Below, piece after piece: positions 6,264 through 36,914 of a stretch of DNA of 37,061 bases (within the stretch, counting starts at the first letter, position 1; each line of letters opens with the position of its first letter). The position numbers and the translations under genes were made by a program. The DNA is from Solirubrobacterales bacterium (lineage in GTDB: Bacteria > Actinomycetota > Thermoleophilia > Solirubrobacterales > Solirubrobacteraceae), in NCBI GenBank assembly GCA_027306855.1, contig DAHUYZ010000018.1, positions 1 to 37,061 on the forward strand. Reading direction: 5' to 3'. The notes beneath the pieces are model-generated. The model did no database searches. It saw only the letters and a list, made by a program, of their open reading frames with translations, and was not told the DNA's origin.

Positions 6264-7532
6264 ATGAACGCCTTGTCACAGCCGGTAGTGCATCTTTCGG
6301 CGGTCTTGCATAGCCCGCTGCTCGACAGGGCGGGCGAGCGGCTGGGTCGCGTGCAGGACCTGATCGTGCGGCTCGCCGACCGCGGCTACCCGCCGGTTAC
6401 GGGCTTGAAGGCGAGGATTGGGGGGCGCGAGTTGTTCGTCCCGGTCGATCGCGTCGCCGAGCTCGAGCCTGGCGCGGTCAAGCTGGCGGGCGAGGTGCTG
6501 AGCTTGAGGCGTTTTGAGCGCCGCGCTGGCGAGGTCTTGCTCGGACAGGATGTGCTTGCCCGTACGCTCGTGGACGTCGAGGCCGAGCCGCCGGTGCTTG
6601 TGAGCGCCCATGAGATCGAGCTCGCTTGTATCGACGGCTGGTGGAGGGTTGTCGGCGTCGATCACAGCGCACGCGCGCGCTTGCGCAGGCGTTTGCCGCG
6701 CCCTTTCAAGAAGCGGATCTCGGATCGGCCGTTCATCGACTGGATGGAGCTCGAGCCGTTCGTCGGCCATGTCCCGACCGCGCGTCTTCGTTTTTCGCAC
6801 CGCAAGCTCGCGAACCTGCACCCGGCGGAGATTGCCGATCTTGTCGAGGCCGCTTCGCATGAGGAGGGAGAGGAGCTCATCAAGGCGGTCGGCCAGGATC
6901 GTGATTTGGAGGCCGATGTGTTCGAGGAGCTGGACGAGCACCATCAGCTCGAGTTCATCCGCGAGCGTCCCGACGATCAGGTCGCGTCGGTGATCGCGCG
7001 GATGGCGGCCGACGATGCGGCGGATCTGATCGTCGAGATCGACCAGGAGCGTCGCGCGCGCGTCCTTGTGCTGCTGCCGTTCGCCCAGCGCCGCCAGATC
7101 GAGAAGCTGCTCGGCTACAACCCTTCGACCGCGGGCGGGCTGATGAGCCCGGAGGTGATCGTCTTGCGCGAGGGGGAGTCGGTCGCCGCGGCCCTGGAAG
7201 CGGTGCGCTCCAGCGAGATTGCCGCTGCGACGCTGACGACCGTCTATCTGAAGGACGAGCAGGGCAAGCTGTGCGGTTCGGCGCCGGTCGTTGGCCTGCT
7301 GCGCAGCGATCCGGCCGCTCCGCTGTCTGCGATCGCCGACCATGAGCCGGTCTCGGTACCGACGGATGCCGACCTTCCCGACGTCGCGCGCACGATGACC
7401 GACTACAACCTCGCGATGTTGCCGGTCGTCGACGGGGACGACAGGCTCGTCGGCGCGATCACCGTTGACGACGTGCTGGAGCAAACGCTCCCAGCCGGCT
7501 GGCGACGGCGCTTTGGGCTCGCTCGGGATTGA
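6264..7532 (+). CDS. PRC-barrel, MgtE_N and CBS domain protein (no channel domain)
   Basis: Product of 422 residues. The first ~170 contain two PRC-barrel-like beta segments; residues ~180-290 match the MgtE N-terminal superhelical domain, ending in NPSTAGGLM, close to the AGGLM motif of MgtE; ~293-410 are two CBS modules. The transmembrane channel of MgtE is absent. In MgtE these N and CBS domains are the Mg2+ sensor that gates the pore, so this protein may sense Mg2+ or nucleotide and control a partner. The obvious partner is the Nramp-family transporter that follows. Such stand-alone MgtE_N/CBS proteins beside Nramp genes are, from general knowledge, common in Actinomycetota. It starts 46 bases after the ROK gene. 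Confidence 0.87.
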   Translation: MNALSQPVVHLSAVLHSPLLDRAGERLGRVQDLIVRLADRGYPPVTGLKARIGGRELFVPVDRVAELEPGAVKLAGEVLSLRRFERRAGEVLLGQDVLARTLVDVEAEPPVLVSAHEIELACIDGWWRVVGVDHSARARLRRRLPRPFKKRISDRPFIDWMELEPFVGHVPTARLRFSHRKLANLHPAEIADLVEAASHEEGEELIKAVGQDRDLEADVFEELDEHHQLEFIRERPDDQVASVIARMAADDAADLIVEIDQERRARVLVLLPFAQRRQIEKLLGYNPSTAGGLMSPEVIVLREGESVAAALEAVRSSEIAAATLTTVYLKDEQGKLCGSAPVVGLLRSDPAAPLSAIADHEPVSVPTDADLPDVARTMTDYNLAMLPVVDGDDRLVGAITVDDVLEQTLPAGWRRRFGLARD

Positions 7533-7632
7533 ACGGGCTGGCCAGGTGCTGTGAGCGCTCGGCGCCTCGACGGCGAGCGGCTCGATGCTAGGCTTGGGCG
7601 TCTCAGGCCCACCGCGCAGAAAGGAGACCGGC

Positions 7633-7701
7633 ATGGATCAAGACCTGCCGCGAAGTACCCAGCCGGTCGCGCGCTCGTCGGGCCCCCTTTCGCTGTCCTG
7701 A
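7633..7701 (+). CDS. Upstream ORF/leader peptide of 22 residues
   Basis: ATG at 7633 preceded by AGAAAGGAG with six to seven bases of spacing, a site as good as any in the window. The peptide starts MDQDLPRSTQP and stops at 7699-7701, about 177 bases before the transporter start. The early acidic residues followed by Pro recall the MgtL leader peptide of enteric bacteria, where acidic/Pro N-termini destabilise translating ribosomes at low Mg2+ and so control mgtA. Similarity is in composition and position only. Whether it is translated is unknown, but the strong ribosome site would be hard to explain otherwise. Confidence 0.5.
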   Translation: MDQDLPRSTQPVARSSGPLSLS

Positions 7702-7860
7702 GCTGAGGCCGTCAGGGCTGTTCTTTCGGCGCGCGACGTAGCGTTTGCGTGCCCTCCGTCTAAAGAGTGCGCAAGCAGCTGCCGTGGGGCGCTGCCTGTC
7801 GCCTCGCCACAGGGCCGGCGCGGCGATCGACGAGTTTGCCGGTCGAGCACGACGACGCAA

Positions 7861-7873
7861 AGAAAGGAGGTGA
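7861..7873 (+). promoter_or_regulatory. Full-length Shine-Dalgarno site deciding the transporter start
   Basis: AGAAAGGAGGTGA at 7861-7873 is complementary along 13 bases to the actinobacterial 16S rRNA 3' end (TCACCTCCTTTCT). A GTG at 7870 lies inside it and cannot use it; the GTG at 7879 is eight bases after AGGAGG. This fixes the start at 7879. Such an over-strong site is consistent with translational control by masking. Confidence 0.8.
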
Positions 7874-7878
7874 GAGAG

Positions 7879-9528
7879 GTGGCGCAGGACCTAGAGCAGG
7901 AACAGGCGGGCGAGGTCCGTCCTACCGGCGTGCCGCCCGTCCTCGATGAGGCCCACATCGGCGACATTAGGGGCGCGCTTGGAACGATCAAGCTGCACGA
8001 GACGGGTGCCCGGCATGGAGCTAAGGCGCGGATCGCGGCGCTGCTCGCGATCATGGGCCCTGGGCTGATCGTGATGGTCGGCGACAACGACGCGGGGGGC
8101 GTCTCGACCTATTCGCAGGCCGGCCAGAACTACGGTGTGAGCCTGCTGTGGACGCTCGTGTTGCTGATCCCTGTGCTGATCGTCAACCAGGAGATGGTGA
8201 TCAGGCTCGGGGCGGTCACGGGGGTCGGGCACGCGCGGCTCATCAACGAGCGCTTCGGGCGCTTCTGGGGGTGGTTCTCGGTCGGCGACCTGTTCGTCCT
8301 CAACTTTTTGACGATCGTCACGGAGTTCATCGGCGTGAGCCTGGCGCTCGAGCATTTCGGCGTGAGCGGGGACATCGCGGTGCCGGTGGCCGCGCTCACG
8401 CTGATCGCGATCACGTCGACCGGTAGCTTCCGCAGTTGGGAGCGGTTCATGTATGTGTTCGTGATCGCCAACTTCCTTGTGATCCCGCTGCTCGTGCTGG
8501 CCCACCCGCATGTGGGCACGGTCGTTGGCCATACCTTTGGGCTTGGCATTCAGGGCGGAGCGAGTTCGACGGCGGTGCTGCTCGTGATCGCGATCGTCGG
8601 CACGACCGTGGCGCCGTGGCAGCTGTTCTTTCAGCAGTCGAACATCATCGACAAGCGCATTACGCCGCGCTGGATCAACTATGAGCGTGCCGACACGGTC
8701 ATCGGGGCGTTCGTCGTCGTGATAGGGGCGGGCGCGCTCATGACGGTGACCGCTTTTGCTTTCGCGGGCACTCCTTATGCCGGCCATTTCAACGATGCCG
8801 CGACCGTGGCGAGCGGACTGTCGCACGAGCTGGGTGGCGCGGCCGGCGCGTTCTACGCGATTGTGCTGCTCAACGCGTCGCTGATCGGCGCGGCTGCCGT
8901 CACGCTGTCGACGTCATATGCGTTTGGGGATGTGTTCGGGACCCGCCACTCCCTGCACCATGGTCTGCGCGAGGCAAAGTCGTTCTATGCGAGCTTCAGC
9001 CTGATGGTGCTCGCCGCCGCCGCGATCGTATTGATCCCGGGCGCTCCGCTGGGGCTCATAACCACCTCTGTGCAGGCCCTTGCGGGAGTGCTGCTGCCAA
9101 GCGCCACGGTCTTCTTGCTACTGCTCTGCAACGACCGCGAGGTGCTTGGCCCGTGGTCGAACCCGCCGTGGCTGAACGCGGTCGCGAGCGTGATCGTAGC
9201 GGTGCTCGTCGAGCTGTCGCTGATTCTTGTGGCGAGCACGATGTTCCCTTCGCTCGATGTCGCGGCTCTGTTCGCTTATCTCACCGGCGGGGTGGTTCTC
9301 GCCTTAGTGGTCGTGGGCGCGCTCGCATTGCGAGGTCGGCGGGGCAAGGTAGCCCTCGCCGCCGGTGAGCAGAAGATCGACAGGGCGAGCTGGACTATGC
9401 CGCCGCTTGCTCTGCTCGAGCGACCGGTCTGGTCGCCGGGACGCAAGGCGGGCATGGCGCTTCTGCGTGGGTACCTGGTCGTGGCGATCGTGCTGTTGAT
9501 CGTCAAGAGCGTCCAGCTCGCGCACTGA
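7879..9528 (+). CDS. Nramp (SLC11) family divalent metal transporter, NRMT-like
   Basis: Product of 549 residues: hydrophilic N-terminus (~50 residues), then about eleven membrane helices. The first helix carries GPGLIVMVGDNDAGG at the place of the DPGN metal motif, and helix six carries VAPWQLFFQQS where Nramp Mn/Fe transporters have the MPH motif; the metal-coordinating Met is missing. Loss of that Met is described for NRMT proteins, the Nramp-related Mg2+ transporters known from bacteria such as Eggerthella. With the MgtE-domain protein just upstream, Mg2+ is a likelier substrate than Mn2+. Membrane protein; the start is decided by the ribosome site at 7861. Family assignment is firm, substrate is inference. 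Confidence 0.88.
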   Translation: MAQDLEQEQAGEVRPTGVPPVLDEAHIGDIRGALGTIKLHETGARHGAKARIAALLAIMGPGLIVMVGDNDAGGVSTYSQAGQNYGVSLLWTLVLLIPVLIVNQEMVIRLGAVTGVGHARLINERFGRFWGWFSVGDLFVLNFLTIVTEFIGVSLALEHFGVSGDIAVPVAALTLIAITSTGSFRSWERFMYVFVIANFLVIPLLVLAHPHVGTVVGHTFGLGIQGGASSTAVLLVIAIVGTTVAPWQLFFQQSNIIDKRITPRWINYERADTVIGAFVVVIGAGALMTVTAFAFAGTPYAGHFNDAATVASGLSHELGGAAGAFYAIVLLNASLIGAAAVTLSTSYAFGDVFGTRHSLHHGLREAKSFYASFSLMVLAAAAIVLIPGAPLGLITTSVQALAGVLLPSATVFLLLLCNDREVLGPWSNPPWLNAVASVIVAVLVELSLILVASTMFPSLDVAALFAYLTGGVVLALVVVGALALRGRRGKVALAAGEQKIDRASWTMPPLALLERPVWSPGRKAGMALLRGYLVVAIVLLIVKSVQLAH

Positions 9529-26156: not shown

Positions 26157-27020
26157 TCAGGCGGCGATTTGTAGTGGTTGGTGTTGGTTCTCGTATTCGG
26201 TTGGTGTGAGCATGTTCAGGGCGCTGTGGCGCCTTCGGGTGTTGTGCCAGATCTCGATGTAGTCGTGGATCGCGCTCGCGAGCTCGATCCTGGTCTTCCA
26301 GCGTTTGCGGTTGAGTAGCTCGACTTGCATGCGCGCCCAGAACGACTCGACCATCGCATTGTCGTAGGGAGCGCCGACGGCTCCCATCGAGGGCGCAAGG
26401 CCGGCGTCGCGGATCTTCTGGCTGAAGGCCCATGACGCGAACTGCACGCCCCTGTTGCTGTGAATGATCAACTCTCCCTCGGGTGTTCTGCGCTTGACCG
26501 CCATGCCGAGCGCGTTTGTGACGAGCAGCGCGGTCTGACCGGTGTCGATCGCCCACCCGACGACCATCCGGGAGAACGCATCGAGCACGACGCAACAGTA
26601 GACCTTGCCCTCCCTGGTGGGATGCTCGGTGATGTCCGTCATCCACAACCGGTCTGGTGCCGCGGCCGTGAAGTTGCGGCGCACGAGGTCGAGCGAGCTG
26701 GCCTTCGCGATCTTCGCGCCGCGTGGCAGTTTGCGTGTCGGCAGGCCACGGATCCCGAGACGGCGCATGAGCGGTTCCACCTGGTTGTGTCCGACGGTGA
26801 TCCCGCGACCGTAGCGCAGCTCAGCGGTCACACGCAGAGCGCCGTACGTGCCCGCTGAAGCCTTGTGGACATCAACGATCTCGTTGGCCAGCCAGGTATG
26901 CCTGAGCGTCCTCGCTGACGGCGGGCGACCCCTCCAGGCGTAATAGCCAGAGACGGACACGCCGAGCATCACACAGGCTCGCTGCACGTCGATCCCCTGC
27001 CCGGTCAGGGACTCGATCAC
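26157..27020 (-). CDS. IS3-family transposase OrfB (rve integrase core), altered DDE triad
   Basis: Product of 287 residues: HTH_21-like N-terminal region (GVSVSGYYAWRGRPPS), then the rve core. Catalytic residues should be Asp129 (WMTDITEHPT), Asp189 and Glu225 (NAMVESFWARMQVEL). Position 189 is Asn: the motif is IIHSNRGVQFAS instead of HSDRGxQ, encoded by AAC. The spacing from 189 to 225 is the classical 35 residues, so this is the catalytic position. A GAC-to-AAC change would abolish strand transfer. It is translated either from the GTG at 27020 or, more likely, by frameshifting from orfA. Confidence 0.93.
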   Translation of the reverse strand: MIESLTGQGIDVQRACVMLGVSVSGYYAWRGRPPSARTLRHTWLANEIVDVHKASAGTYGALRVTAELRYGRGITVGHNQVEPLMRRLGIRGLPTRKLPRGAKIAKASSLDLVRRNFTAAAPDRLWMTDITEHPTREGKVYCCVVLDAFSRMVVGWAIDTGQTALLVTNALGMAVKRRTPEGELIIHSNRGVQFASWAFSQKIRDAGLAPSMGAVGAPYDNAMVESFWARMQVELLNRKRWKTRIELASAIHDYIEIWHNTRRRHSALNMLTPTEYENQHQPLQIAA

Positions 27021-27313
27021 CGGGTAGAGGCTTTTGGGGAGAGATCTTGATCTAGGAAGACCTCATTGACCTTCCGCGAGACCGCCAGTTCGGTCTCCAG
27101 CTGACGAATGCGGCGCTTGGCCGCCGCGAGCTCCATCTGCCCCTCAGTGCTCAGGCCCGGAGCCTCCCCTCGATCGATCCTCTCCTGCTTCAGCCAGCTA
27201 TAGATCGTGGCCTGCGTCATCCCGAACGTCTCGGCGAGCTGAGCGACCCTCGTGCCCGCCCGCGCAAGCTCAACGACCTGCTTGCGCACCTCGGCTGGAT
27301 ACCTGCTCGGCAT
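27017..27313 (-). CDS. IS3-family transposase OrfA (HTH, leucine-zipper)
   Basis: Product of 98 residues: a helix-turn-helix (GTRVAQLAETFGMTQATIYSWLKQ, about 20-43) and a coiled coil (AAAKRRIRQLETELAVSRKV). It binds the terminal repeats and helps multimerise the transposase. The ATG at 27313 has AGGAGG five bases upstream. Four bases overlap orfB. Confidence 0.92.
   Translation of the reverse strand: MPSRYPAEVRKQVVELARAGTRVAQLAETFGMTQATIYSWLKQERIDRGEAPGLSTEGQMELAAAKRRIRQLETELAVSRKVNEVFLDQDLSPKASTR
27032..27038 (-). promoter_or_regulatory. Programmed -1 frameshift slippery heptamer in orfA
   Basis: On the minus strand C-CCA-AAA lies in the orfA reading frame (a perfect X-XXY-YYZ site) 18 bases before the orfA stop. 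A -1 slip gives PKSLYPVIESLTGQG, joining smoothly into OrfB as in known OrfAB fusion transposases of the IS3 family. Confidence 0.65.
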
Positions 27314-27429: not shown

Positions 27430-28335
27430 CTAGACGTCTTGTCCGGAGCCTGCCCGCAGGCGCTCGGCGAGCGCAAACGCCTCCTCTTGGCTGGCGAAGG
27501 ACAGCTCCGCGTGGTAGCCGCTTGCGCTTGCCCGCACCCGCACCTCGGCGCCGAGGGCCTGGGCAAGCGTCTCCGAGATCGTCGCGATCGCCTCCTGCTG
27601 GTCCGGGTGCAGCTCGCCGCTTCGCCCACGCCCCGTCTTTGGTTTGGACTTACCACTTCGCTCGTTCGCCTCCCTCGCACGCGCTTCGGTCGTGCGCACC
27701 GACCAGCCCTCCTCCGCGGCGTCCCTCGCCAAGCGCCGTCTGACGGAATGGTCCTCGGCCAGCAACAGCGCCCTGCCGTGGCCCTCACTCAGCCTGGCCC
27801 GCTCGATCAGCTCGACCGCCTCATCTGGCAGGTCGAGCAGGCGCAACAAATTCGATACTGCTACGCGCCCACGTCCGACCCTGCGGCCGACCGCCTCGCG
27901 CGTCAGTCCCAGCTCCTCGACAAGCGCCGCGACGGCTCGCGCCTCCTCGATCGGGTTGAGGTCCTCGCGCGCCATGTTCTCGATCAGCGCGAGCTCCAGC
28001 GCCGCGGCGTCCTCGTGCATCCGAACGATCGCCGGGACCTGCTCGAGGCCCGCGATCTTCGCGGCCCGCCAGCGCCGCTCGCCCGCGACCAGCTCATACG
28101 AGCCGCCCGACTTCGGTCTGACGAGCACCGGCTGCAGCACACCTCGCTCCGACAGAGATCCCGCCAGCGCGTTCAGCGCGTCCTCGTCGAAGTGCTTGCG
28201 CGGCTGCTCTGGGTTCGGCTCGATCAGCTCGACCGGCAGCTCTCGCAGCTCCTCCTCCTGCGCGGAGCGCGTCTCCCGCGACACCGACAGGATCGCCTCG
28301 AGCCCTCGTCCGATGCCGGGCTTTGGCCTAGCCAC
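27430..28335 (-). CDS. parB: Chromosome partitioning protein ParB
   Basis: Product of 301 residues. N-terminal ParA-contact region (PKPGIGRGLEAIL), ParB/Spo0J core with the CTP-binding motif GERRWRA (85-91) and IENMAREDLNPIEEA (118-132), the DNA-binding helix-turn-helix (TREAVGRRVGRGRVAVSNLLRLL) and a C-terminal dimer domain. It binds parS and spreads as a CTP clamp. The GTG at 28335 is preferred: AGGAGG lies nine bases upstream and it overlaps the parA stop by eight bases. The C-terminus is normal despite the insertion events just downstream. Confidence 0.96.
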   Translation of the reverse strand: MARPKPGIGRGLEAILSVSRETRSAQEEELRELPVELIEPNPEQPRKHFDEDALNALAGSLSERGVLQPVLVRPKSGGSYELVAGERRWRAAKIAGLEQVPAIVRMHEDAAALELALIENMAREDLNPIEEARAVAALVEELGLTREAVGRRVGRGRVAVSNLLRLLDLPDEAVELIERARLSEGHGRALLLAEDHSVRRRLARDAAEEGWSVRTTEARAREANERSGKSKPKTGRGRSGELHPDQQEAIATISETLAQALGAEVRVRASASGYHAELSFASQEEAFALAERLRAGSGQDV

Positions 28336-29086
28336 GGGATGCGACCTCCTGAGCGAGCGCAAAATACGCCTCGGCGCCGGCGCTATGAGGGTCGTGGTGG
28401 GTCACAGGCAGCCCATAGCTCGGTGCCTCCCCCACCCTCACGTTACGGGGGATCACCGTATCGAAGACCAGATCCGGGAAATGCTCGCGTACCTCACGCT
28501 CAACGTCGCGCCCCAGTCGTGTCCTGGAGTCGTGCATCGTGAGCAGCATCCCGGCGATGGTCAACCTGGGGTTCAGCTCGCGCTGCACCAGCGACAGGGT
28601 GTCGAGCAGCCCCGCGAGCCCCTCGAGCGCGAAGTACTCGGTCTGCACTGGCACGATCACCCGGTCGGCGGCCACCAGCGCGCTCACCGTCAGCGGGCCG
28701 AGCGAGGGCGGACAGTCGAGCACGACGTACTCGAAGCGGTCCTTCACCGTGTCGAGCGCCTGCCTCAACCTCAGCTCGAACCCCTCCACGCGCGGAAGCT
28801 CCATGTTCGCTCCCGCCAGGCCCGGGCCCGCCGGAAGCAGCGTCAGCGCGGAGACGACGCTGTCAACGAGTGCCCGCTCCGCATCGAGCTCGCCGCACAG
28901 CACCTCATAGAGCCCAGGCGCCTGGCTTCTCGACAAGCCCAGCCCGACCGTCGCATTGGCCTGGGGATCCACGTCGACGAGCAGCGTCGCATAGCCGGCC
29001 TCCGCGATGCACGCCGCCACATTGACGGCCGTCGTCGTCTTGCCGACGCCTCCCTTCTGGTTTGCGATCGCGTAGACCTTGCCCAT
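28328..29086 (-). CDS. parA: Chromosome partitioning ATPase ParA (Soj)
   Basis: Product of 252 residues. Deviant Walker A KGGVGKTT (11-18) with the signature Lys, then VDVDPQANAT, and Walker B-like YVVLDCPPSLGPLT. Short ParA without an N-terminal HTH, the chromosomal Soj type. It works with ParB in origin segregation by ATP-dependent nucleoid binding. ATG at 29086 without an obvious ribosome site. It begins about 150 bases after rsmG. Confidence 0.96.
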   Translation of the reverse strand: MGKVYAIANQKGGVGKTTTAVNVAACIAEAGYATLLVDVDPQANATVGLGLSRSQAPGLYEVLCGELDAERALVDSVVSALTLLPAGPGLAGANMELPRVEGFELRLRQALDTVKDRFEYVVLDCPPSLGPLTVSALVAADRVIVPVQTEYFALEGLAGLLDTLSLVQRELNPRLTIAGMLLTMHDSRTRLGRDVEREVREHFPDLVFDTVIPRNVRVGEAPSYGLPVTHHDPHSAGAEAYFALAQEVASRG

Positions 29087-29235
29087 GATCGTTGGACGCT
29101 ACAGCCGCTCGCGGTCGGAGCGCGCGCACGTCCCTCCACGCGCCTCGTCAACCGCACGGTGCCGCTCATGCCCGTCCGGGCTCACCGCCACGCGCCGCAG
29201 TCGCACGCCCATGGGCAAGACCCTCAACCTCGACC

Positions 29236-29949
29236 TCACCCCGCAAGCGGCCTCTTGCGGGCCATTCCTGCTCGCCGGGGAAACCGCTCAGGCGTCTCCC
29301 GTACCTTCAAGTAGACGTGCAGATGATGGTCGTGCGCTCCCTCAAAGGGCTCGACTTCGCGAATCTCAACCAGTTCAATCCCCAATTGCTCGGCTGCATC
29401 GAGCGCGGCCTGCTCCTCGGTCCCATCCCTGCGACCGCGCCAGTCGACAAGAACGCCCTCCAGCTCGAGCAGCGGAGCCGCGTACTCCAACACGACCGCC
29501 GCAGGCGCAAGCGCCCGGGCGAGCACCGCTTCGTGCGTGCCTCTCCCCTCAGGCCACTCCTCCACCCTGCGCTCAACGACCTCCGCATTGTCGACCCCAG
29601 CCCCAGCGACCAGCCGCCGCAGGAACCGGCACTTCCTCGACTGGCTCTCCACCAGCCGTACCCGGCTCGTCGGCAACGCGACCGCCAGAGGCAAACCCGG
29701 GAAGCCGGCGCCCGACCCAATATCGGCGATTCTCCGGGCACTCCGCAGTCGATCGACCTCGAGCGCGACGAGCGAGTCCGCCAAGTGGACGTCCACGGCC
29801 AGCGTCGGATCGCGCACGCTCGTCGGAGCACGCTCGTCCTCGGCGACCGTCTCCAGGCTGCGCGCAAGCTGGTCGACCTGTTCATCTGAAAGGCGGTGGC
29901 GTGCAGCCAGCTCACCCAAGCGCTGCCGCACCAGGCTCTCAGTGGTCAT
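29236..29949 (-). CDS. rsmG: 16S rRNA (guanine-N7) methyltransferase RsmG
   Basis: Product of about 237 residues. SAM motif IADIGSGAGFPGLPLAVALP, with VRLVESQSRKCRFLR after it and an ARALAP motif, matches RsmG/GidB, which methylates G527 of 16S rRNA. Three start codons compete (29949, 29952, 29973); none has a good ribosome site, and the one giving MTTESLVRQRLGE fits the family best. It stands in the standard place between jag and parA. Confidence 0.93.
   Translation of the reverse strand: MTTESLVRQRLGELAARHRLSDEQVDQLARSLETVAEDERAPTSVRDPTLAVDVHLADSLVALEVDRLRSARRIADIGSGAGFPGLPLAVALPTSRVRLVESQSRKCRFLRRLVAGAGVDNAEVVERRVEEWPEGRGTHEAVLARALAPAAVVLEYAAPLLELEGVLVDWRGRRDGTEEQAALDAAEQLGIELVEIREVEPFEGAHDHHLHVYLKVRETPERFPRRAGMARKRPLAG
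29240..29261. terminator. Stem-loop at the 3' end of rsmG
   Basis: CCCGCAAG (29240-29247) and CTTGCGGG (29254-29261) form a perfect 8-bp stem with a six-base loop, overlapping the last codons of rsmG. No T-run follows in the direction of transcription. It may reduce read-through into parA or protect the mRNA end. Confidence 0.35.
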
Positions 29950-30020
29950 CATGCGTATTTCATGAGAGGTCATTACGCCGCGCACAGGACGCACCGAGCG
30001 CGCCAAACCGCGGTGACGAT

Positions 30021-30036
30021 GTTTTCCCGTGAAACA
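30021..30036. promoter_or_regulatory. Degenerate parS-like site
   Basis: GTTTTCCCGTGAAACA matches the parS consensus TGTTTCACGTGAAACA at 13 of 16 positions; the right half GTGAAACA is perfect, and the left half is off by an extra T. It lies between jag and rsmG, near the partition genes and about 2.6 kb from dnaA, where parS sites cluster. No other parS-like site was seen in the window. Confidence 0.4.
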
Positions 30037-30072
30037 CTCGCCCGCCTTCCCGCGGCTGTCCGCCGCCGCGTC

Positions 30073-30567
30073 CTACCCCTGAAGCGGCTCGACGACCAGG
30101 TACCGCTCGGGCTCCTGACCTTCGCTGTGGGTCTGAACGTCGCCGCGCTCGCGCAGGTACTCGTGCACGACGCGGCGCTCGGACGAAGGCATCGGGTCCA
30201 GCTCGACGGGTTGGCCGAGGCGCAGTGACTCTTCGGCGGCATCCAGCGCGATCGAGCGCAAGGTCTCAGCGCGGCGCTCACGGTAGCCGTCGACGTCGAT
30301 CACAACGCGCGCATCGGGCGATTCGCCGCGGAACACGATCCTCTGGGCGAGGTGCTGCACAGCATCGATCGTCTGCCCGCGACGCCCAATCAAGAGGCCG
30401 ACGTCCTCGCCTTCGATGATGCCCGTCAAGAGGCCGGGTGAGCGCTCGGCGCGGATCTCCACGTCAAGGCCCAGGCTGTCGGCCACCCGTTCCAGCAACT
30501 CTCGCAACACGAGGGCGCGCTCGTCCTCCTCCTGGCGCTCGCCCGACTGTGGATCCACAGCGCTCAC
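30073..30567 (-). CDS. khpB: KhpB/Jag RNA-binding protein (KH and R3H domains)
   Basis: Product of 164 residues. The KH domain is about 55-100 with the GxxG-type loop IGRRGQTIDAVQHL, and the R3H domain is about 100-160 (SSERRVVHEYLRERGDVQTHSEG). The N-terminal Jag_N domain of some homologues is absent. It binds RNA with partner KhpA and affects cell-wall growth in Firmicutes. GTG start at 30567 overlaps the yidC stop (GTGA), so translation is coupled. Confidence 0.93.
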   Translation of the reverse strand: MSAVDPQSGERQEEDERALVLRELLERVADSLGLDVEIRAERSPGLLTGIIEGEDVGLLIGRRGQTIDAVQHLAQRIVFRGESPDARVVIDVDGYRERRAETLRSIALDAAEESLRLGQPVELDPMPSSERRVVHEYLRERGDVQTHSEGQEPERYLVVEPLQG

Positions 30568-31556
30568 CGGCGCCTACCCGAGCGCTTCTTCTTCCTGCGA
30601 GGAGGCGGTGGCGGCGGAGCTTCGCGGCCCCCGCCTGTCAGCGCCGGCTGTGGCTGCGCCTCTTTGCCTCCAAGCAGCAGTTTCTTTACGCCCTCCGCGG
30701 CGCCTTGAGATGGGGACGACGGCGCGCTTCCATTCGATGGAGGCTTCACGACCGGGCCGATTCGTCGCCGTACGAACCACCCCTGGCCAATAGTCCACAG
30801 GTTGGAAGTGATCCAATAAACGAGGAGACCCGCCGGATAGCGGTAGAGAATGACCACGAAGAAGACCGGTAACGCCAGCATCAGCCGTCGCTGGTTGGGG
30901 TCGGCCGAAGCGGAGGTCATCAGCGTCGAGGCGACCATCGAGCCGACGTAGAGCACCAACAGCACGACGAGCGCCACGCCCGTCGCCTTGTTCGTGATGT
31001 CCGGGAGGAACAGGAATTTGCCCGAGCCGGGCGCCACCGATTGGCAGCTGGTCGATTCGATGTATTTACTCGGCAGCGCCCCTATCGCGGTTGCGTGGAG
31101 CACGTGATAGCCGGTCCGAGCCTGCAGGGACAGCGAGTTGTAGTGGCTGACCAGAGCATCGCCGCATATGTGCTTCTTCAGGTCGGTCCTCAGCATGTAG
31201 AAGAGCGAGATGAACACCGGCAGCTGGAGCAAGAGCGGCAGGCATGACGCGAACGGGTTGACTTTGTGCTCGCGATAGAAGTTCATGATCTCCTGCTGCT
31301 GGCGCTGCTTGTCGTCCTTGTACTTCTCCTGGATCGCCTTCAGCTCGGGGGCCAGCCGCTGGAGTTCCTGCATCGAGTGCAGCTGCTTGATCGTCAGCGG
31401 CACCAGTACAGCGCGGATCAGCACCGTCAGGCCGACGATCGCAAGGCCCCAGCTCCCGCCCACGAGGTCGTTGTGGACGAACACGAGCACCGATTCGAAC
31501 GCCGTTATTAGCGGCGAAAAGGCTTCCTCGATGAAGTTCGTCGCGAAGATCAGCAT
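30564..31556 (-). CDS. yidC: Membrane protein insertase YidC (Oxa1 family)
   Basis: Product of about 330 residues. The first insertase helix carries the conserved Arg of the hydrophilic groove (LTVLIRAVLVPLTIKQ, Arg47), followed by the coiled cytoplasmic loop (MQELQRLAPELKAIQEKYKD), NPFASCLPLLLQLPVFISLF, and later helices with NLWTIGQGW. The large periplasmic domain of Gram-negative YidC is absent; the C-tail is Pro/Arg/Lys-rich. A ~45-residue loop after helix 3 contains two Cys. Start at 31556 from family alignment. It inserts proteins into the cytoplasmic membrane alone or with SecYEG. Confidence 0.95.
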   Translation of the reverse strand: MLIFATNFIEEAFSPLITAFESVLVFVHNDLVGGSWGLAIVGLTVLIRAVLVPLTIKQLHSMQELQRLAPELKAIQEKYKDDKQRQQQEIMNFYREHKVNPFASCLPLLLQLPVFISLFYMLRTDLKKHICGDALVSHYNSLSLQARTGYHVLHATAIGALPSKYIESTSCQSVAPGSGKFLFLPDITNKATGVALVVLLVLYVGSMVASTLMTSASADPNQRRLMLALPVFFVVILYRYPAGLLVYWITSNLWTIGQGWFVRRRIGPVVKPPSNGSAPSSPSQGAAEGVKKLLLGGKEAQPQPALTGGGREAPPPPPPRRKKKRSGRRR

Positions 31557-31587
31557 TGGGCGGGTATGCCTGGATAGCGGCTGTCGC

Positions 31588-31845
31588 TCAGGCCGGAGAA
31601 CCGTGGCGTGGCCGGAACAGACGTTGAGCCGTGACCGGGTCGTACCCGCCATGGCTCCACGGATTGCACCTGAGCAAACGCCACGCCGCGAGCACGAGGC
31701 CTCTCAGTATGCCGTACTCCTCGATCGCCTGTGTCGCGTACGCCGAGCAGGTCGGCTCGTACTTGCAGCGGCGCGGGACCAAGGGCGAGACGAGGCGCCG
31801 GTAAGCGGTGATCGGGGCGATCGCCACAGTCCGCAGCCAGCTCAT
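31588..31845 (-). CDS. yidD: Membrane protein insertion efficiency factor YidD
   Basis: Product of 85 residues with the family motifs RRCKYEPTCSAYATQAIEEY and RLLRCNPWSHGGYDPV, including the three conserved Cys. Its ATG overlaps the rnpA stop (ATGA). It sits between rnpA and yidC as in most bacteria. Confidence 0.95.
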   Translation of the reverse strand: MSWLRTVAIAPITAYRRLVSPLVPRRCKYEPTCSAYATQAIEEYGILRGLVLAAWRLLRCNPWSHGGYDPVTAQRLFRPRHGSPA

Positions 31846-32234
31846 GCGGGGTCTCCTTCGCGATCCCCGTCCCTGCGCAGCCCCGACTTCTCCAGCAGCT
31901 CCCCAAGCGAGGACTCGATGCCGCTGAGCCCGGCGCTGTCGGCGAGCTCACGCGCCTCCGGCCGCGCGACGATCACGATGTCCTGTCCCTCGCCCAACTC
32001 GCCCGCGACACCGTCGAACGCCTCCCTGAGCAGGCGCTTGACACGGTTTCGCTCCACGGCGCCTCCCACCTTGCGCGAGACGGACAGACCGAGCCGAAGC
32101 TCCCCAGTCGACTCATTCGGGAACGAGTACAGCACGAGATGCCTGTTGGCGACCGACCGGCCCTGCCTGTACACGCGCTCGAACTCGGCGCTGCGCGAGA
32201 GGCGTCGACCGCGGCGTGAGGATCGCGCCGGCAT
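31842..32234 (-). CDS. rnpA: Ribonuclease P protein component
   Basis: Product of 130 residues. The signature RNRVKRLLREAF, an N-terminal FERVYRQGRSVANRHLVLY and LGLSVSRKVGGAVERN are diagnostic. It assists the RNase P RNA in 5' processing of tRNA precursors. It begins 11 bases after rpmH and overlaps yidD. The C-terminus is somewhat longer and more acidic than in most relatives. Confidence 0.96.
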   Translation of the reverse strand: MPARSSRRGRRLSRSAEFERVYRQGRSVANRHLVLYSFPNESTGELRLGLSVSRKVGGAVERNRVKRLLREAFDGVAGELGEGQDIVIVARPEARELADSAGLSGIESSLGELLEKSGLRRDGDREGDPA

Positions 32235-32245
32235 CGCGACCCGTC

Positions 32246-32380
32246 CTACGCCGAGAGGCGCTTGCGGCCCTTGCGTCGGCGCCGGCCCAGTGTCAGCCTG
32301 CCCGCGCGCGTGCGCATGCGAGCACGGAACCCGTGCGTACGGGCGCGCTTGCGTTTCTTGGGCTGATAGGTCCGCTTCAT
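32246..32380 (-). CDS. rpmH: 50S ribosomal protein L34
   Basis: Product of 44 residues, [20 protein letters not shown] followed by [20 protein letters not shown], the universal L34 sequence. Start at 32380 is fixed by family; 44 extra in-frame residues upstream are not conserved. First gene of the leftward rpmH-rnpA-yidD-yidC-khpB cluster. Confidence 0.98.
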
Positions 32381-32643
32381 CGGTTCACCGGGCGCGCTCG
32401 ATCTCCGCCGTACACACGCCCTCGCGCGCCTCGGACAAGATCTGGCTTCCGCCGAGCCGTCAAGTATAGGGAGTGACGTCCACCCGCGCTCGCATACGGA
32501 TTTTCTCGCCATTTGCGAGCATCGACGAGCATCCGCTGGCGGCGGAGAGCGCGCTGGGTTATATTCGGCCTACCGGGTCATCGCCGACCCCGAGCACATG
32601 ATTTCTGTCCACTTTCTCCCGCAAGGAGCAGGTTTCCGCTGCC
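32381..32643. promoter_or_regulatory. Divergent promoter region between rpmH and dnaA
   Basis: These 263 bases separate the two directions of transcription at the origin. TATATT at 32560-32565 is the best -10 candidate for dnaA. TATACT on the minus strand near 32465 is a candidate for rpmH. AAGGAG lies about 15 bases ahead of the dnaA GTG. No good DnaA-box cluster was seen here. Confidence 0.4.
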
Positions 32644-34167
32644 GTGAAGGCCGAGCTCGATCACGTCTTCTCCCAGATCCAAGCCGAGCTCGCCGAGACG
32701 GTCGATGAGCCCGTCTACCGTATCTGGCTCGAGCCGCTGCGAGCGGTCGAGCTCGCCGAGGACCATCTGACGATCGAAGCCTCCCCGCAGGCGTGCTCAT
32801 GGGTGCGTGACCGCTTCGGACGCATCATCCAGGCCTGCACCGCCGCCGTGCTCGGTCCGCACGTAAGCGTCTACGTAGTCGAAGCCGATCGCCACACGCC
32901 CATCGGTCCCTCTGGCTATCCCGGCCCTCCCCACCGTCCCGGGTCCACCAGCCCGGCTGGGCCTCTCGGCTCCACCGAGCCGGCCGGTCGTTCTGGATCT
33001 CCCGCTCTTGGCCCTACCGGCAACGCCGGCTCTCCCGGCCGTCCAAGCGCCCAGTCAGGTCCACAAGGCCCGATGCCGAGCACCGGCACGACAGGTCCAC
33101 CGGCGCAACCGGCGCTTGCGCATCCCAACACCAACCCGAAGTTGACGTTCGAGCAGTTCGTGATCGGGGACTCCAACCGGCTCGCCCACGCCGCCGCTCT
33201 CGCGGTCAGCGAGATGCCGGCGCAGGCCTACAACCCGCTGTTCATCTGCGGGCCGCCCGGCCTCGGCAAGACGCACCTGCTCGGGGCGATCGCCAACCTG
33301 CTCGCCGCGCACGACCACCGCCTCTCGATACGCCGTACAACAGGAGAGGCGTTCACGAACGACTTCCTACTCGCGCTCGGCTCCGGCGGGCTCGACCGCT
33401 TCAAGGCAAGCTTCCGCCATGTCGACGTGCTGCTGATCGACGACGTCCAGTTCCTGGAGCGCAAGACCAAAACGGAGGAAGAGTTCTTCCACACCTTCGA
33501 CACGCTGTATGAAGCGGGCAGCCAGATCGTGCTCACCTCCGATCGTCCGCCCAGCGACCTCCAAGCGCTCGAAGACAGGCTGCGCGAGCGGTTCGCCTCC
33601 GGGCTCGTCGCCGACATCCGCCCGCCAGACCTGCCGACCCGCCTTGCGATCCTGCGCAAGCGCGCCGCCTACGACGGGATCGACCTCGCCGACGAATCCG
33701 CGCTCCAGATCATCGCCGAACGGGTCTCCCTCAACGTCAGGGCGCTCGAGGGCGCCCTGATCCGCGTCGTCGCCTTCAGCTCGCTCACCGGCCGGCCCCT
33801 CACCGCCGAGCTGGCACGCGAGGTGATCGAGGGCCTCTACCCCGAGCCCCCGCGAGCTGTTCCCTCGATCGAACAGATCCTGCAGGCGACGTGCCAGCGA
33901 TTCGAGATCCCAAGCGACGAGCTCATCTCGCCTTCGCGGTCTCCACGCATCGCCGGCGCCCGCCAGCTCGCCATGTACCTCGCGCGCGAGCTGACCGACG
34001 AGTCGCTGCCTGCGATCGGTAGGGCTTTCGGCGGGCGCGACCACACGACCGTCCTACACGCGCTGCGCAAGACCGAGCAGCGTATCTCCACAGACGCCGA
34101 CCTTCGCCGCGCCGCACAGGAGTTGCGTGAGGGCCTATCCACAGGCGCTCCCGACCGGATCGCCTGA
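32644..34167 (+). CDS. dnaA: Chromosomal replication initiator DnaA with collagen-like linker
   Basis: Product of 507 residues. Domain I about 1-80; linker domain II about 87-160; AAA+ domain III with Walker [10 protein letters not shown] (203-211) and Walker [11 protein letters not shown]; domain IV with the DnaA-box-binding signature [14 protein letters not shown]. The linker is unusual: a Gly-Pro-Ser-rich run of GPx/GxP triplets reminiscent of collagen. GTG start at 32644; the AAGGAG upstream is far (about 15 bases), which may lower expression. Initiates replication by melting oriC. Confidence 0.97.
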
Positions 34168-34290
34168 AACACTTCCATGCGCTGCCTGCACAGCCTCCTG
34201 CACAGCCACTCTGCCGCGAACAGTCCACCCAACCTCACAATCCACAAATCCACAACTCCTACTGATCCTCTCCAAGGTAGAAACATTTAG
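34135..34290. other. Candidate oriC segment: DnaA-box-like repeats between dnaA and dnaN
   Basis: CTATCCACA at 34135-34143 differs by one base from the consensus TTATCCACA. CAATCCACA (34238-34246) and AAATCCACA (34246-34254) are tandem sites sharing ATCCACA, and CAGTCCACC lies near 34221. The spacer is only 123 bases and AT-richer than its surroundings. Position between dnaA and dnaN is the usual actinobacterial oriC. The boxes are weak, so this is a candidate only. Confidence 0.45.
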
Positions 34291-35397
34291 TTGAAGCTGT
34301 CCCTACCGACACCCGATCTGCTCTCCCAACTCCAGGCAGCCACTCGCGTCGCCTCCTCCCGTGCCGCCGTTCAGGCCCTCTCGGGAGTGATGATCTCGGC
34401 TGACGAGCAGGGCATCGTGCTGCTTGCTACCGACATGGAGATCGGGCTCCGCATCCCCCTCGCCGGCGAAGTTGTCCGTCCCGGCGCGGCGGTCCTGCCG
34501 GCTCGCCTGCTGCTCGAAGTCGTCCGCTCGTTGGCTGGGGACACCGCGACGCTCGAGCTGCACCCCGCCGAGCAGAATGTCGAGCTCGTCTGCGGCGCCT
34601 CAAAATTCCACCTGAGGACGCTGCGCTCAGAGGACTTCCCAAAGCTCCCCGAGCCGGCGGCAGACACTCGGATGACACTGCCCGTACACGAGTTCATCGA
34701 TACCGCGCTCGTCGTCTCGCGATCGGCCTCAAAAGACGAGACGCGTCCCGTGCTCACAGGCGTGCTCATCTCCGCGGCCGGCGGCGAGCTGCGCATGGTC
34801 GCAACCGACTCCTATCGCCTCAGCGTCAAGCTGGCCAAGCTCGACACAGGGCTGCAAGGGTCGATCGAGGCCAACGTTCCCGCGCGGGCTCTCCAGGAGC
34901 TTGCACGGATCGCCCAGAGCTCGGATCCCGCGGAGCTGACCGCAAGTCTCGGCCAGAACCAGATCGTCTTCGAGATCGGCCCGATCGTGCTCTCCTCACG
35001 GCTGATCGACGGGCAGTTCCCCAACTATCGCCAACTGCTTCCCGAGGCGGTCGAGCACGAACTGCGCCTGTCGGCCTCGGAGATAGCCGACGTCGTCCGC
35101 CGTGTCAGCCTGCTCGCCCAAAAGAACACCCCGCTGCGCATGAGCTTCCACGAAGGGGAGCTCGTCGTATCCGCCCAGACCCCCGACGTCGGCGACGCAA
35201 GCGAGGCGCTGCCGGTGCCCTTCTCGGGCGAGGCGTTTGAGATCGGGTTCAACCCAGAGTTCATCAGGGATGGACTGGAGAGCGTCGAATCCGATGAGCT
35301 AGTGCTCAAGCTGATCAGCCCGCTGCGCCCCGGCCTGATCGAGTCGCCGGACGGGAGCTTCGTCTACCTGATCATGCCCATAAGGCTCAGCGCATGA
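34291..35397 (+). CDS. dnaN: DNA polymerase III sliding clamp (beta subunit)
   Basis: Product of 368 residues with the three-fold clamp repeat; typical stretches include GVLISAAGGELRMVATDSYRLSV, QFPNYRQLLP and the C-terminal YLIMPIRL that ends in the canonical M-P-x-R-L. It tethers polymerase to DNA as a dimer ring. Start is TTG at 34291 with AAGGTAG about ten bases upstream; the family begins at MKLSLPTPDLL. Confidence 0.97.
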   Translation: MKLSLPTPDLLSQLQAATRVASSRAAVQALSGVMISADEQGIVLLATDMEIGLRIPLAGEVVRPGAAVLPARLLLEVVRSLAGDTATLELHPAEQNVELVCGASKFHLRTLRSEDFPKLPEPAADTRMTLPVHEFIDTALVVSRSASKDETRPVLTGVLISAAGGELRMVATDSYRLSVKLAKLDTGLQGSIEANVPARALQELARIAQSSDPAELTASLGQNQIVFEIGPIVLSSRLIDGQFPNYRQLLPEAVEHELRLSASEIADVVRRVSLLAQKNTPLRMSFHEGELVVSAQTPDVGDASEALPVPFSGEAFEIGFNPEFIRDGLESVESDELVLKLISPLRPGLIESPDGSFVYLIMPIRLSA

Positions 35398-35422
35398 GTG
35401 GAATGAGTGGGGCGCGACTGAC

Positions 35423-36526
35423 ATGCGAGTCCTCACCGTCGAGCTGCGCGAGTTCCGCACCTACGCCCGTGCCCGCGCCGATCTAGGCGACGGCCTGACA
35501 GTCGTCTATGGGGCCAACGGCGCAGGCAAGTCGAATCTGCTCGAGGCGATCTACTTCGGCTGCACCGGCTACTCTCCCCGCACCCGCAACGAACGCGAGC
35601 TGGTGCGCTTCGGAGCGGACTCGACGCGCGTCGAGCTGAGGCTGCTCGACGACGGACGCCATCACGAGCTGGCGGTCGGCCTGCGCCCCGGCGATGCCAA
35701 GCGGATGACGGCCGACGGGGCGCCGGTCGAGCGGCTGACCGATTTCGAGCACAGGCCGCTCGTCAGCGTCTTCTCGCCAGACCGACTCGAGCTGCTCAAG
35801 GGATCTCCCTCGCTTCGCCGTTCCCACCTCGACCAGCTGATAGCGGCCATGTGGCCGGCGCGAGCCTCGACACGACGCGACTACTCCAGGGCGCTGGCTC
35901 AACGTAACGCCCTGATCGCCGGCATCCGCGCCTCGCGGGCCTCACCCACCTCGCTCGCAGGCTGGGACCAAGAGCTCGCCCGCCACGCGATCGCGTTGCG
36001 CGAAGACCGCTCCTCGGTCTCTGCTCTGATCGCGGCGCCGTTCTCCCAAACCGCGTCCCAGCTAGGCCTCGCCGGCGAGCCGGCGCTCGAGTACCGCCCC
36101 CGTTCGCACGCCACCGACGAAGAGGAGTTCGTACGCGAGCTGAACGAACGGCTCGAGAGCGACCTACGACGCGGCTTCTCCACGCATGGACCTCACCGCG
36201 ACGAGCTGCTCTTTCTACGCGACGGACGCGACCTGCGCTCCTACGGATCCCAGGGCGAGCAGCGACTCGCCCTGCTCGCCCTGCTGCTCTGCGAGCGCGC
36301 CCTACTGGCCGCCGAGCGGGGCCGTGCTCCCCTGATGCTGCTCGACGACGTCATGAGCGAGCTCGACCGCGAGCGCCGCGAGCTGCTCATAACAGAGCTC
36401 TCAAGCGCCGGTCAGAGCGTGATCGCCACGACCGACCTCTCGCATGTCCCCCACGCCGGCAAGACATCCGTAGCGCGCCTGCTCATATCGACCGGCACGA
36501 TCGTCGGAGAGGCGATAGCGGCATGA
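35423..36526 (+). CDS. recF: DNA replication/repair protein RecF
   Basis: Product of 367 residues. N-terminal FRTYARA (the LxNFRxY motif), Walker A GANGAGKSN (30-38), an SMC-like signature region GSQGEQRLALLALLL and Walker B PLMLLDDVMSELD. It helps load RecA at gaps. ATG at 35423, 25 bases after dnaN, same operon by spacing. Confidence 0.96.
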   Translation: MRVLTVELREFRTYARARADLGDGLTVVYGANGAGKSNLLEAIYFGCTGYSPRTRNERELVRFGADSTRVELRLLDDGRHHELAVGLRPGDAKRMTADGAPVERLTDFEHRPLVSVFSPDRLELLKGSPSLRRSHLDQLIAAMWPARASTRRDYSRALAQRNALIAGIRASRASPTSLAGWDQELARHAIALREDRSSVSALIAAPFSQTASQLGLAGEPALEYRPRSHATDEEEFVRELNERLESDLRRGFSTHGPHRDELLFLRDGRDLRSYGSQGEQRLALLALLLCERALLAAERGRAPLMLLDDVMSELDRERRELLITELSSAGQSVIATTDLSHVPHAGKTSVARLLISTGTIVGEAIAA

Positions 36527-36608
36527 GCATCGGCGGGCGCAACGCCAATGAAGACGACCGTGGCGTGAGCGCGAGCAGGCACGAGCCCATAGCGGCGACC
36601 ATAGCGGC

Positions 36609-36914
36609 ATGACCAGGCGCGAGCGCAAACGACTTGGCCCGCGCAAGCTGTCGAGCGCTCTCGACGGGCTCACCGGCTCGCTCCAGCCGGCAAGTACGCT
36701 CGCGCGTGTACAGCGGGTCTGGGAGGACGCCGCCGGCCCTTCCCTCGCCGCCGCCGGGCGTCCGAGCGCAGAGCGGGACGGCGTCTTGACCGTCATCTGC
36801 GCCGACTCGGTGTGGGCGCAGGAGCTCGAGCTGATGGGTCCCGAGCTTGCCGAACGCCTCAACGGAGCGCTCGGCGAAGCGGCCATTACTCGGCTGCGCT
36901 GCCGCGCCGGCTAA
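36609..36914 (+). CDS. DUF721 (DciA-like) protein
   Basis: Product of 101 residues with the DUF721 pattern: LARVQRVWEDAAGPSLAAAG, LTVICADSVWAQELELMGPE, LAERLNGAL. DUF721 proteins include DciA, which helps load the replicative helicase, and are regularly found between recF and gyrB in Actinomycetota. Short (usual actinobacterial forms are longer at the N-terminus). The preceding 36527-36608 carries no gene. Confidence 0.88.
   Translation: MTRRERKRLGPRKLSSALDGLTGSLQPASTLARVQRVWEDAAGPSLAAAGRPSAERDGVLTVICADSVWAQELELMGPELAERLNGALGEAAITRLRCRAG

Follow-up and report, generated by a model that had tools for sequence, protein, structure and literature searches.

What does a 22-codon upstream open reading frame (uORF) do in the long leader of a gene for a putative Mg2+ importer of the NRMT type? 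The locus lies on contig DAHUYZ010000018.1 of a Solirubrobacterales bacterium (assembly GCA_027306855.1), and the whole 37,061-nt stretch analyzed is referred to here as the window. Nascent-peptide sensing of Mg2+ has been described for enterobacteria, and an earlier note on this DNA had suggested that something similar may operate here. Comparison with the leaders of orthologous genes indicates that the uORF is under selection. The evidence tips somewhat toward the uORF acting in cis, as a leader-peptide gene through which Mg2+-dependent pausing or drop-off of the ribosome controls translation of the NRMT Mg2+ importer.

The layout given in the earlier note holds: a 22-codon uORF behind a strong ribosome binding site, a 346-nt leader that runs from the upstream stop codon (7532) to the likely GTG start of an Nramp-family gene (7879), and an upstream gene encoding MgtE_N and CBS domains. 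The features are as follows, with groups A and B of the uORFs defined below.

6264..7532, + strand: gene for a putatively soluble protein with MgtE_N (Pfam 6e-22) and CBS (4e-16) domains
7586..7594, + strand: predicted extended -10 element TGCTAGGCT, from the TGnTAnnnT pattern of curated leaders
7620..7626, + strand: Shine-Dalgarno (SD) sequence of the uORF, AAAGGAG, similar in most of 10 aligned group A leaders
7633..7701, + strand: uORF of 22 codons, MDQDLPRSTQPVARSSGPLSLS, from ATG 7633 to TGA 7699-7701
7648..7656, + strand: core codons CCG CGA AGT (Pro-Arg-Ser), conserved in the comparison of uORFs
7863..7870, + strand: SD sequence of the transporter gene, AAAGGAGG
7879..9528, + strand: NRMT-type (SLC11/Nramp-related Mg2+ transporter) gene with GTG start, assigned by Pfam, structure match, and signature

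The transporter start is probably GTG 7879; the ORF finder places it at 7870, which is disfavored because that codon begins inside the transporter SD.

The uORF recurs before orthologous genes. From 178 sequences (relatives of the window's genome and named genomes, window included), 98 orthologues were retained that scored at least 300 bits in tblastn, had a start codon, and differed in a 140-nt stretch of the gene. Of these, 67 have a leader of 100 nt or longer. A first scan for an acidic residue followed by P-x-S, with serine written AGT, found a uORF in 42/67 leaders against 0.83 expected from dinucleotide shuffles. Since that scan fixed the serine codon, it was repeated with any serine codon and two acidic positions ([DE]..[DE]-x-P-x-S), again yielding 42/67 leaders, with 0.33 expected from shuffles and no match on the reverse strand (0/67) or in equal stretches inside the gene (0/67). 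The earlier note had staked its proposal on conservation among relatives, and conservation is what these scans found. In both scans, the matches in L045 and L069 are probably due to chance, and the orthologue counts are of non-independent events because some orthologues are close relatives (e.g., L068/L075 and L013/L014). Of the 25 leaders without the motif, ten have a CTG-started uORF and nine have neither type; the remaining six are variants or doubtful (L033, L036, which contains a run of N, L039, L058 of Conexibacter sp. DBS9H8, which has a variant uORF, L079, which starts with ATC, and L099). The uORFs are 18 to 38 residues long with variable C-terminal halves.

Models of the leader were also searched for in genomes of the class. 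Across 399 such genomes, a model of group B leaders gave 15 matches, each in a different genome and each immediately before an NRMT orthologue. Several of the 15 are training sequences, and since no more than 8 candidates per genome were scored, weaker copies elsewhere are possible. A group A model gave six strong matches in the 399 genomes, all of them training sequences before an orthologue; 105/399 genomes match at E<=0.01, of which only the six passed a noise cut-off set at E=1e-10. The transporter itself is matched at E<=1e-120 in 42/399 of these genomes. No description of this uORF was found in the literature searched, a search outside of which most subscription papers fall. Duplication of the transporter start, considered because the uORF begins MDQDL and the window transporter MAQDL, was rejected: the other 11 orthologue N termini compared lack MxQDL, the nearest being MADDL in L034, and 11 of the 12 compared loci (all but L032) carry the uORF.

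The pattern of codon change suggests that the N-terminal peptide is what selection retains. The 39 uORFs of a curated set fall into group A (nine members, window-like, with proline at codon 6-7), group B (21 members, with proline at codon 13-14), and nine others; because of how the uORFs were chosen, AGT is invariant among them. An excess of synonymous differences in frame is visible in both groups. The share of synonymous differences is 0.296 in frame versus 0.145 and 0.142 in the shifted frames for group A, and 0.176 versus 0.121 and 0.121 for group B. In group B the excess is concentrated before the proline (0.162 in frame versus 0.069 and 0.091 shifted), and the N-terminal peptide is therefore read as the selected part. 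This coding constraint suggests that the uORF is translated. Residues are kept while their codons vary at several positions. The residue two before the proline is acidic in 20/21 group B and 8/9 group A uORFs (written GAG, GAA, GAC, or GAT), the residue four before it in 16/21 and 7/9, and the proline itself is written with all four of its codons.

Two positions of the core are conserved at the level of the codon. The codon after the proline is CGA in 30/30 group A and B uORFs and in 0/9 others, and among the 42 motif uORFs the serine is AGT in 38, TCC in three, and AGC in one (L045, probably a chance match). AGT is the rarest serine codon in 13 window genes (3.8%) and makes up 2.7% of serine codons in the orthologues, where TCT is equally rare (2.6%). 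AGT is thus, by sequence comparison, kept beyond selection on the peptide.

The downstream gene is of the NRMT type by signature. Its product is a Pfam Nramp protein (6e-73), and its best match among solved structures is 7QIA (EleNRMT) at 1e-52, the next being at 6e-15. NRMT proteins are distinguished from transition-metal Nramps by DxxG in helix 1 and by having TxxA/T rather than A/CxxM in helix 6 (PMC8806188). The window protein has both: NDAGG aligns with 7QIA in helix 1, and TTVAPW(Q) aligns with its TTIAPW in helix 6, which bears out the NRMT-like reading of DNDAGG in transmembrane helix 1 (TM1) and of VAPWQ replacing MPH. Most NRMT members are reported to adjoin a gene for an MgtE-like cytoplasmic domain (PMC4072509), and the window transporter adjoins the MgtE_N/CBS gene, the product of which gave no match to the MgtE membrane domain. 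Most orthologue loci whose contig extends far enough have a homologue of that gene before the transporter; none was found within the contigs of L069 or L076. EleNRMT transports both Mg2+ and Mn2+ (PMC8806188), and Mg2+ import by the window transporter is likely.

The genomic context also points to Mg2+. An M-box Mg2+ riboswitch lies between the same two genes in 4 of the 58 orthologue loci scanned with Rfam (L045, L047, L051, and L084), and none was found in 19 scanned loci, all of which have the acidic-Pro uORF or a variant. In L086 (4761-4934), an M-box is located behind the transporter gene and not before it.

The Mg2+ transporter CorA was compared across 61 relatives, with matches at 66% identity or higher counted as orthologues. 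CorA is present in 1/15 relatives with the NRMT orthologue versus 42/46 without it (Fisher 1.9e-9), in 1/14 versus 8/10 within the genus (p 0.0005), and in 1/8 versus 8/10 among genus genomes at least 80% complete (p 0.015); these p-values overstate the evidence because the genomes are related and some are incomplete. CorA and the NRMT orthologue are almost mutually exclusive. The window's own genome (92% complete) gave no match to CorA, to the MgtE membrane domain, or to the M-box. An MgtA-type ATPase above the family cut-off was found in 0/61 genomes, with weaker P-type ATPase matches in 58/61. Mg2+ is the likeliest relevant ion.

How the leader RNA might couple the uORF to the transporter is suggested mainly by relatives of the window. 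The window leader itself folds no better than shuffles (z +1.17), on which ground a structured leader was rejected, and a known riboswitch was ruled out since nothing in Rfam, M-box RF00380 included, matched it at the gathering score; five weak matches (E 0.38-7.1) look like chance. In RNAalifold of 23 related leaders (group B with L079 and L039, the window not among them), the sole consensus helix pairs the transporter SD, GGAGGT, with an anti-Shine-Dalgarno (anti-SD) sequence, ACCTCC, just past the uORF stop. Extended to seven pairs (GACCTCC/GGAGGTC), the helix has 92.5% of cells paired, whereas slid versions reach 57.9% at most, and three cells are altered on both sides (L016, L165, and L168). 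SD duplex energies combined over 39 leaders give a Fisher chi2 of 157.6 on 78 degrees of freedom.

The uORF and transporter may also have their own promoter, which would lie at 7586-7594 in the window. A scan with the sigma-70 consensus found no promoter for the uORF and transporter. A -10-like element, TAnnnT, occurs between -80 and -12 from the uORF start in 32/39 curated leaders (10.8 expected from mononucleotide shuffles), and a promoter of their own is therefore possible. The extended form TGnTAnnnT is found in 25/39, at -36 to -53 from the uORF start (-63 in L012). No intrinsic terminator was found in 7400-7900.

In the proposed mechanism, a ribosome would start on the uORF and synthesize an acidic-x-acidic-x-Pro-x-Ser chain, with the proline at codon 6 to 14, reading through the rare AGT codon. 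At low Mg2+, elongation of this acidic and proline-containing chain would be fragile, a step proposed on the analogy of Salmonella mgtQ, and the ribosome would pause or fall off. Its loss or delay would refold the leader and alter the accessibility of the transporter SD, and low Mg2+ would presumably lead to more importer. Mg2+ as the signal, ribosome destabilization as the sensor, and the direction of the response are all inferred by analogy.

Several observations weigh against this reading. The uORF is not universal: 31/98 orthologues have leaders shorter than 100 nt (some contigs being truncated and some starts doubtful), 9/67 longer leaders contain neither uORF type, and the nearest relative, L032 (85% identical), has lost the leader and with it the uORF, its transporter starting within about 50 nt of the stop of the CBS gene (2924-2976). 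In group B the coding signal is nearly gone after the proline (0.196 versus 0.188 and 0.156). Support for the anti-SD helix is uneven. Its RNAalifold covariation term in the 23 leaders is 0, and it did not exceed a column-shuffle control (139/500 for cells paired, 88/500 for score) because its columns hardly vary. Duplex p-values fall below 0.05 in only 8/39 leaders, the window's being 0.095, and RNAalifold on 13 leaders paired the SD with the uORF core and not with the anti-SD. The effect of ribosome position was examined by partition-function folding with a footprint blocked at the proline, arginine, or stop; the leaders folded were 21 of group B, 8 of group A, and 8 others, L012 and L166 being dropped for want of a recognizable SD. 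With the core covered by a footprint, the SD became more accessible in 2/21 group B leaders and less so in 2/21; the figures were 2/8 and 0/8 for group A and 0/8 and 3/8 for the others, and the window stayed unchanged (0.16 to 0.18). These mixed results did not reveal a consistent RNA switch driven by ribosome position, and no direction of control is claimed because of them. As to the ion, the related NrmT of A. capsulatum rescued Mn2+ better than Mg2+ (PMC4072509), and the window's own genome has P-type ATPase matches, the best of which reaches 356 of the 610.75 bits that the MgtA cut-off requires.

These points bear differently on the other explanations of the uORF. It could be a regulatory leader peptide that answers to something other than Mg2+, such as slow decoding of the rare CGA-AGT pair, proline or tRNA charging, the state of EF-P, or a metal such as Mn2+. 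The fixation of CGA and AGT at the codon level (30/30 and 38/42) would fit a decoding signal, and the Mn2+ transport of EleNRMT (PMC8806188) and the Mn2+ preference of the A. capsulatum relative (PMC4072509) would fit a manganese one. However, the acidic residue two before the proline (28/30) is kept as an amino acid with free codon choice, and the M-box and CorA patterns favor Mg2+; a non-Mg2+ signal is a serious but rather unlikely candidate. An improbable alternative is that the uORF encodes a small protein with a function in trans, perhaps directed at the transporter or the MgtE_N/CBS protein. The peptide is strongly conserved, and the same role has been proposed for the mycobacterial M-box uORF Rv1805A (PMC12810186), but conservation is mainly N-terminal up to the core, length varies between 18 and 38 residues, and a role in cis is suggested by the anti-SD/SD helix that closely follows the stop.

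The uORF might also be kept solely as an RNA element, either the anti-SD or a hairpin, CCGCG/CGCGG, with translation incidental. Constraint on the nucleotides of CGAAGT is what one would expect of such an element, and the 13 leaders that paired core with SD when uncut formed this hairpin over the core when cut before the SD. Neither pairing is part of the 23-leader consensus, which lacks a core helix, the acidic and proline codons vary synonymously, and the window leader has no more folding energy than its shuffles. We regard this explanation as very improbable. A cis-acting leader peptide that responds to Mg2+ is the reading carried forward below.

Its closest counterpart among known systems is mgtQ of Salmonella, an 8-codon uORF in the long gap between mgtC and mgtB. 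Its acidic residues, Asp2 and Glu5, lower its own translation and raise that of mgtB via alternative stem-loops over the ribosome binding site (PMC8092293). The window uORF is likewise short, has a strong SD, lies in a gap of unusual length ahead of a putative Mg2+ transporter gene, and encodes aspartate or glutamate near the N terminus and one proline. Masking of the transporter ribosome binding site by RNA structure may have a counterpart in the anti-SD helix of the 23 related leaders, which is weak in the window. Unlike MgtQ, which has eight codons and precedes MgtB in enterobacteria, the window uORF has 22 and precedes an NRMT gene; a separate promoter is predicted for this locus. We know of no Pro-x-Ser(AGT) core in MgtQ.

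MgtL, the leader peptide of mgtA in Salmonella and E. coli, also has an acidic and proline-containing N terminus before a Mg2+ transporter gene, and mgtA is under Rho-dependent control. The window uORF shares the short ORF and the acidic residues and proline near the N terminus, here before an NRMT-type gene; the two peptides are too short for homology to be judged. The system is placed among Mg2+ leader peptides as a kind, outside the MgtL and MgtQ family.

Closer in phylogeny is mycobacterial Rv1805A, which is uORF2 in the M-box leader of pe20. Its proline at position 7 is reported as conserved, and the role of Rv1805A as unclear (PMC12810186). Both are conserved actinobacterial uORFs in Mg2+ leaders with an anti-SD, but Rv1805A sits downstream of an M-box and before pe/ppe genes with the core order Ser-Pro, while the window uORF has Pro-x-Ser, with its proline at position 6 and not 7 and no M-box match in the window. 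The M-box NrmT operons of Clostridium (PMC4072509) pair an NRMT gene with one for an MgtE-like cytoplasmic domain, as here; their Mg2+-responsive leader is a riboswitch, whereas the window has a uORF in a genome without an M-box match.

If the preferred reading is true, sensing of Mg2+ by the ribosome would have arisen, or survived, beyond the enterobacteria: a distant phylum would use it with a differing core (acidic-x-acidic-x-Pro-x-Ser, with rare AGT) and ahead of another class of Mg2+ transporter. The conserved core offers a sharp motif to mutate, and the finding may help to explain the conserved mycobacterial M-box uORFs.

Other uORF types occur in comparable positions. A CTG-started uORF (LSADRGSPHQP-like) precedes 11 NRMT orthologues (L042, L043, L045, L046, L047, L049, L051, L054, L056, L062, and L084), with an SD of 4-6 matching bases and the sequence [SH][AT]DRG[STL]P in ten, or the shorter HADGSP in L062. 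A conserved CTG start is unusual; in 6/11 of these uORFs there is no in-frame ATG, GTG, or TTG after the last stop, and an M-box lies upstream in 4/11. A bridging form, MxxxDSPxS, is found in L061 and L065. In two Mycobacterium genomes, 6/7 M-box leaders (L178, L179, L182, L183 read by eye, L184, and L186, but not L185) contain a uORF with Ser(AGT) followed by proline at position 7, replaced by threonine in one. These mycobacterial uORFs resemble both the NRMT leader peptides and Rv1805A, and the shared features are a lead only, as homology cannot be shown for peptides so short. It is conceivable, though doubtful, that Actinomycetota carry an old nascent-chain Mg2+ sensor, of which the acidic-Pro NRMT uORFs, MxxxDSPxS, the CTG-started ADRG[ST]P type, and Rv1805A would be variants. 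The common strategy would be a short acidic chain with a proline, mostly beside a rare AGT, that renders elongation sensitive to Mg2+, whether or not an M-box precedes it.

Elsewhere in the window, two ORFs at 26157-27313 on the - strand resemble an IS3-type transposase pair (translations judged by eye). The stretch 27430-36914, also judged by eye, resembles the neighborhood of a replication origin, with parA/parB-like and rsmG/jag/yidC-like ORFs followed by dnaA-, dnaN-, and recF-like ones.
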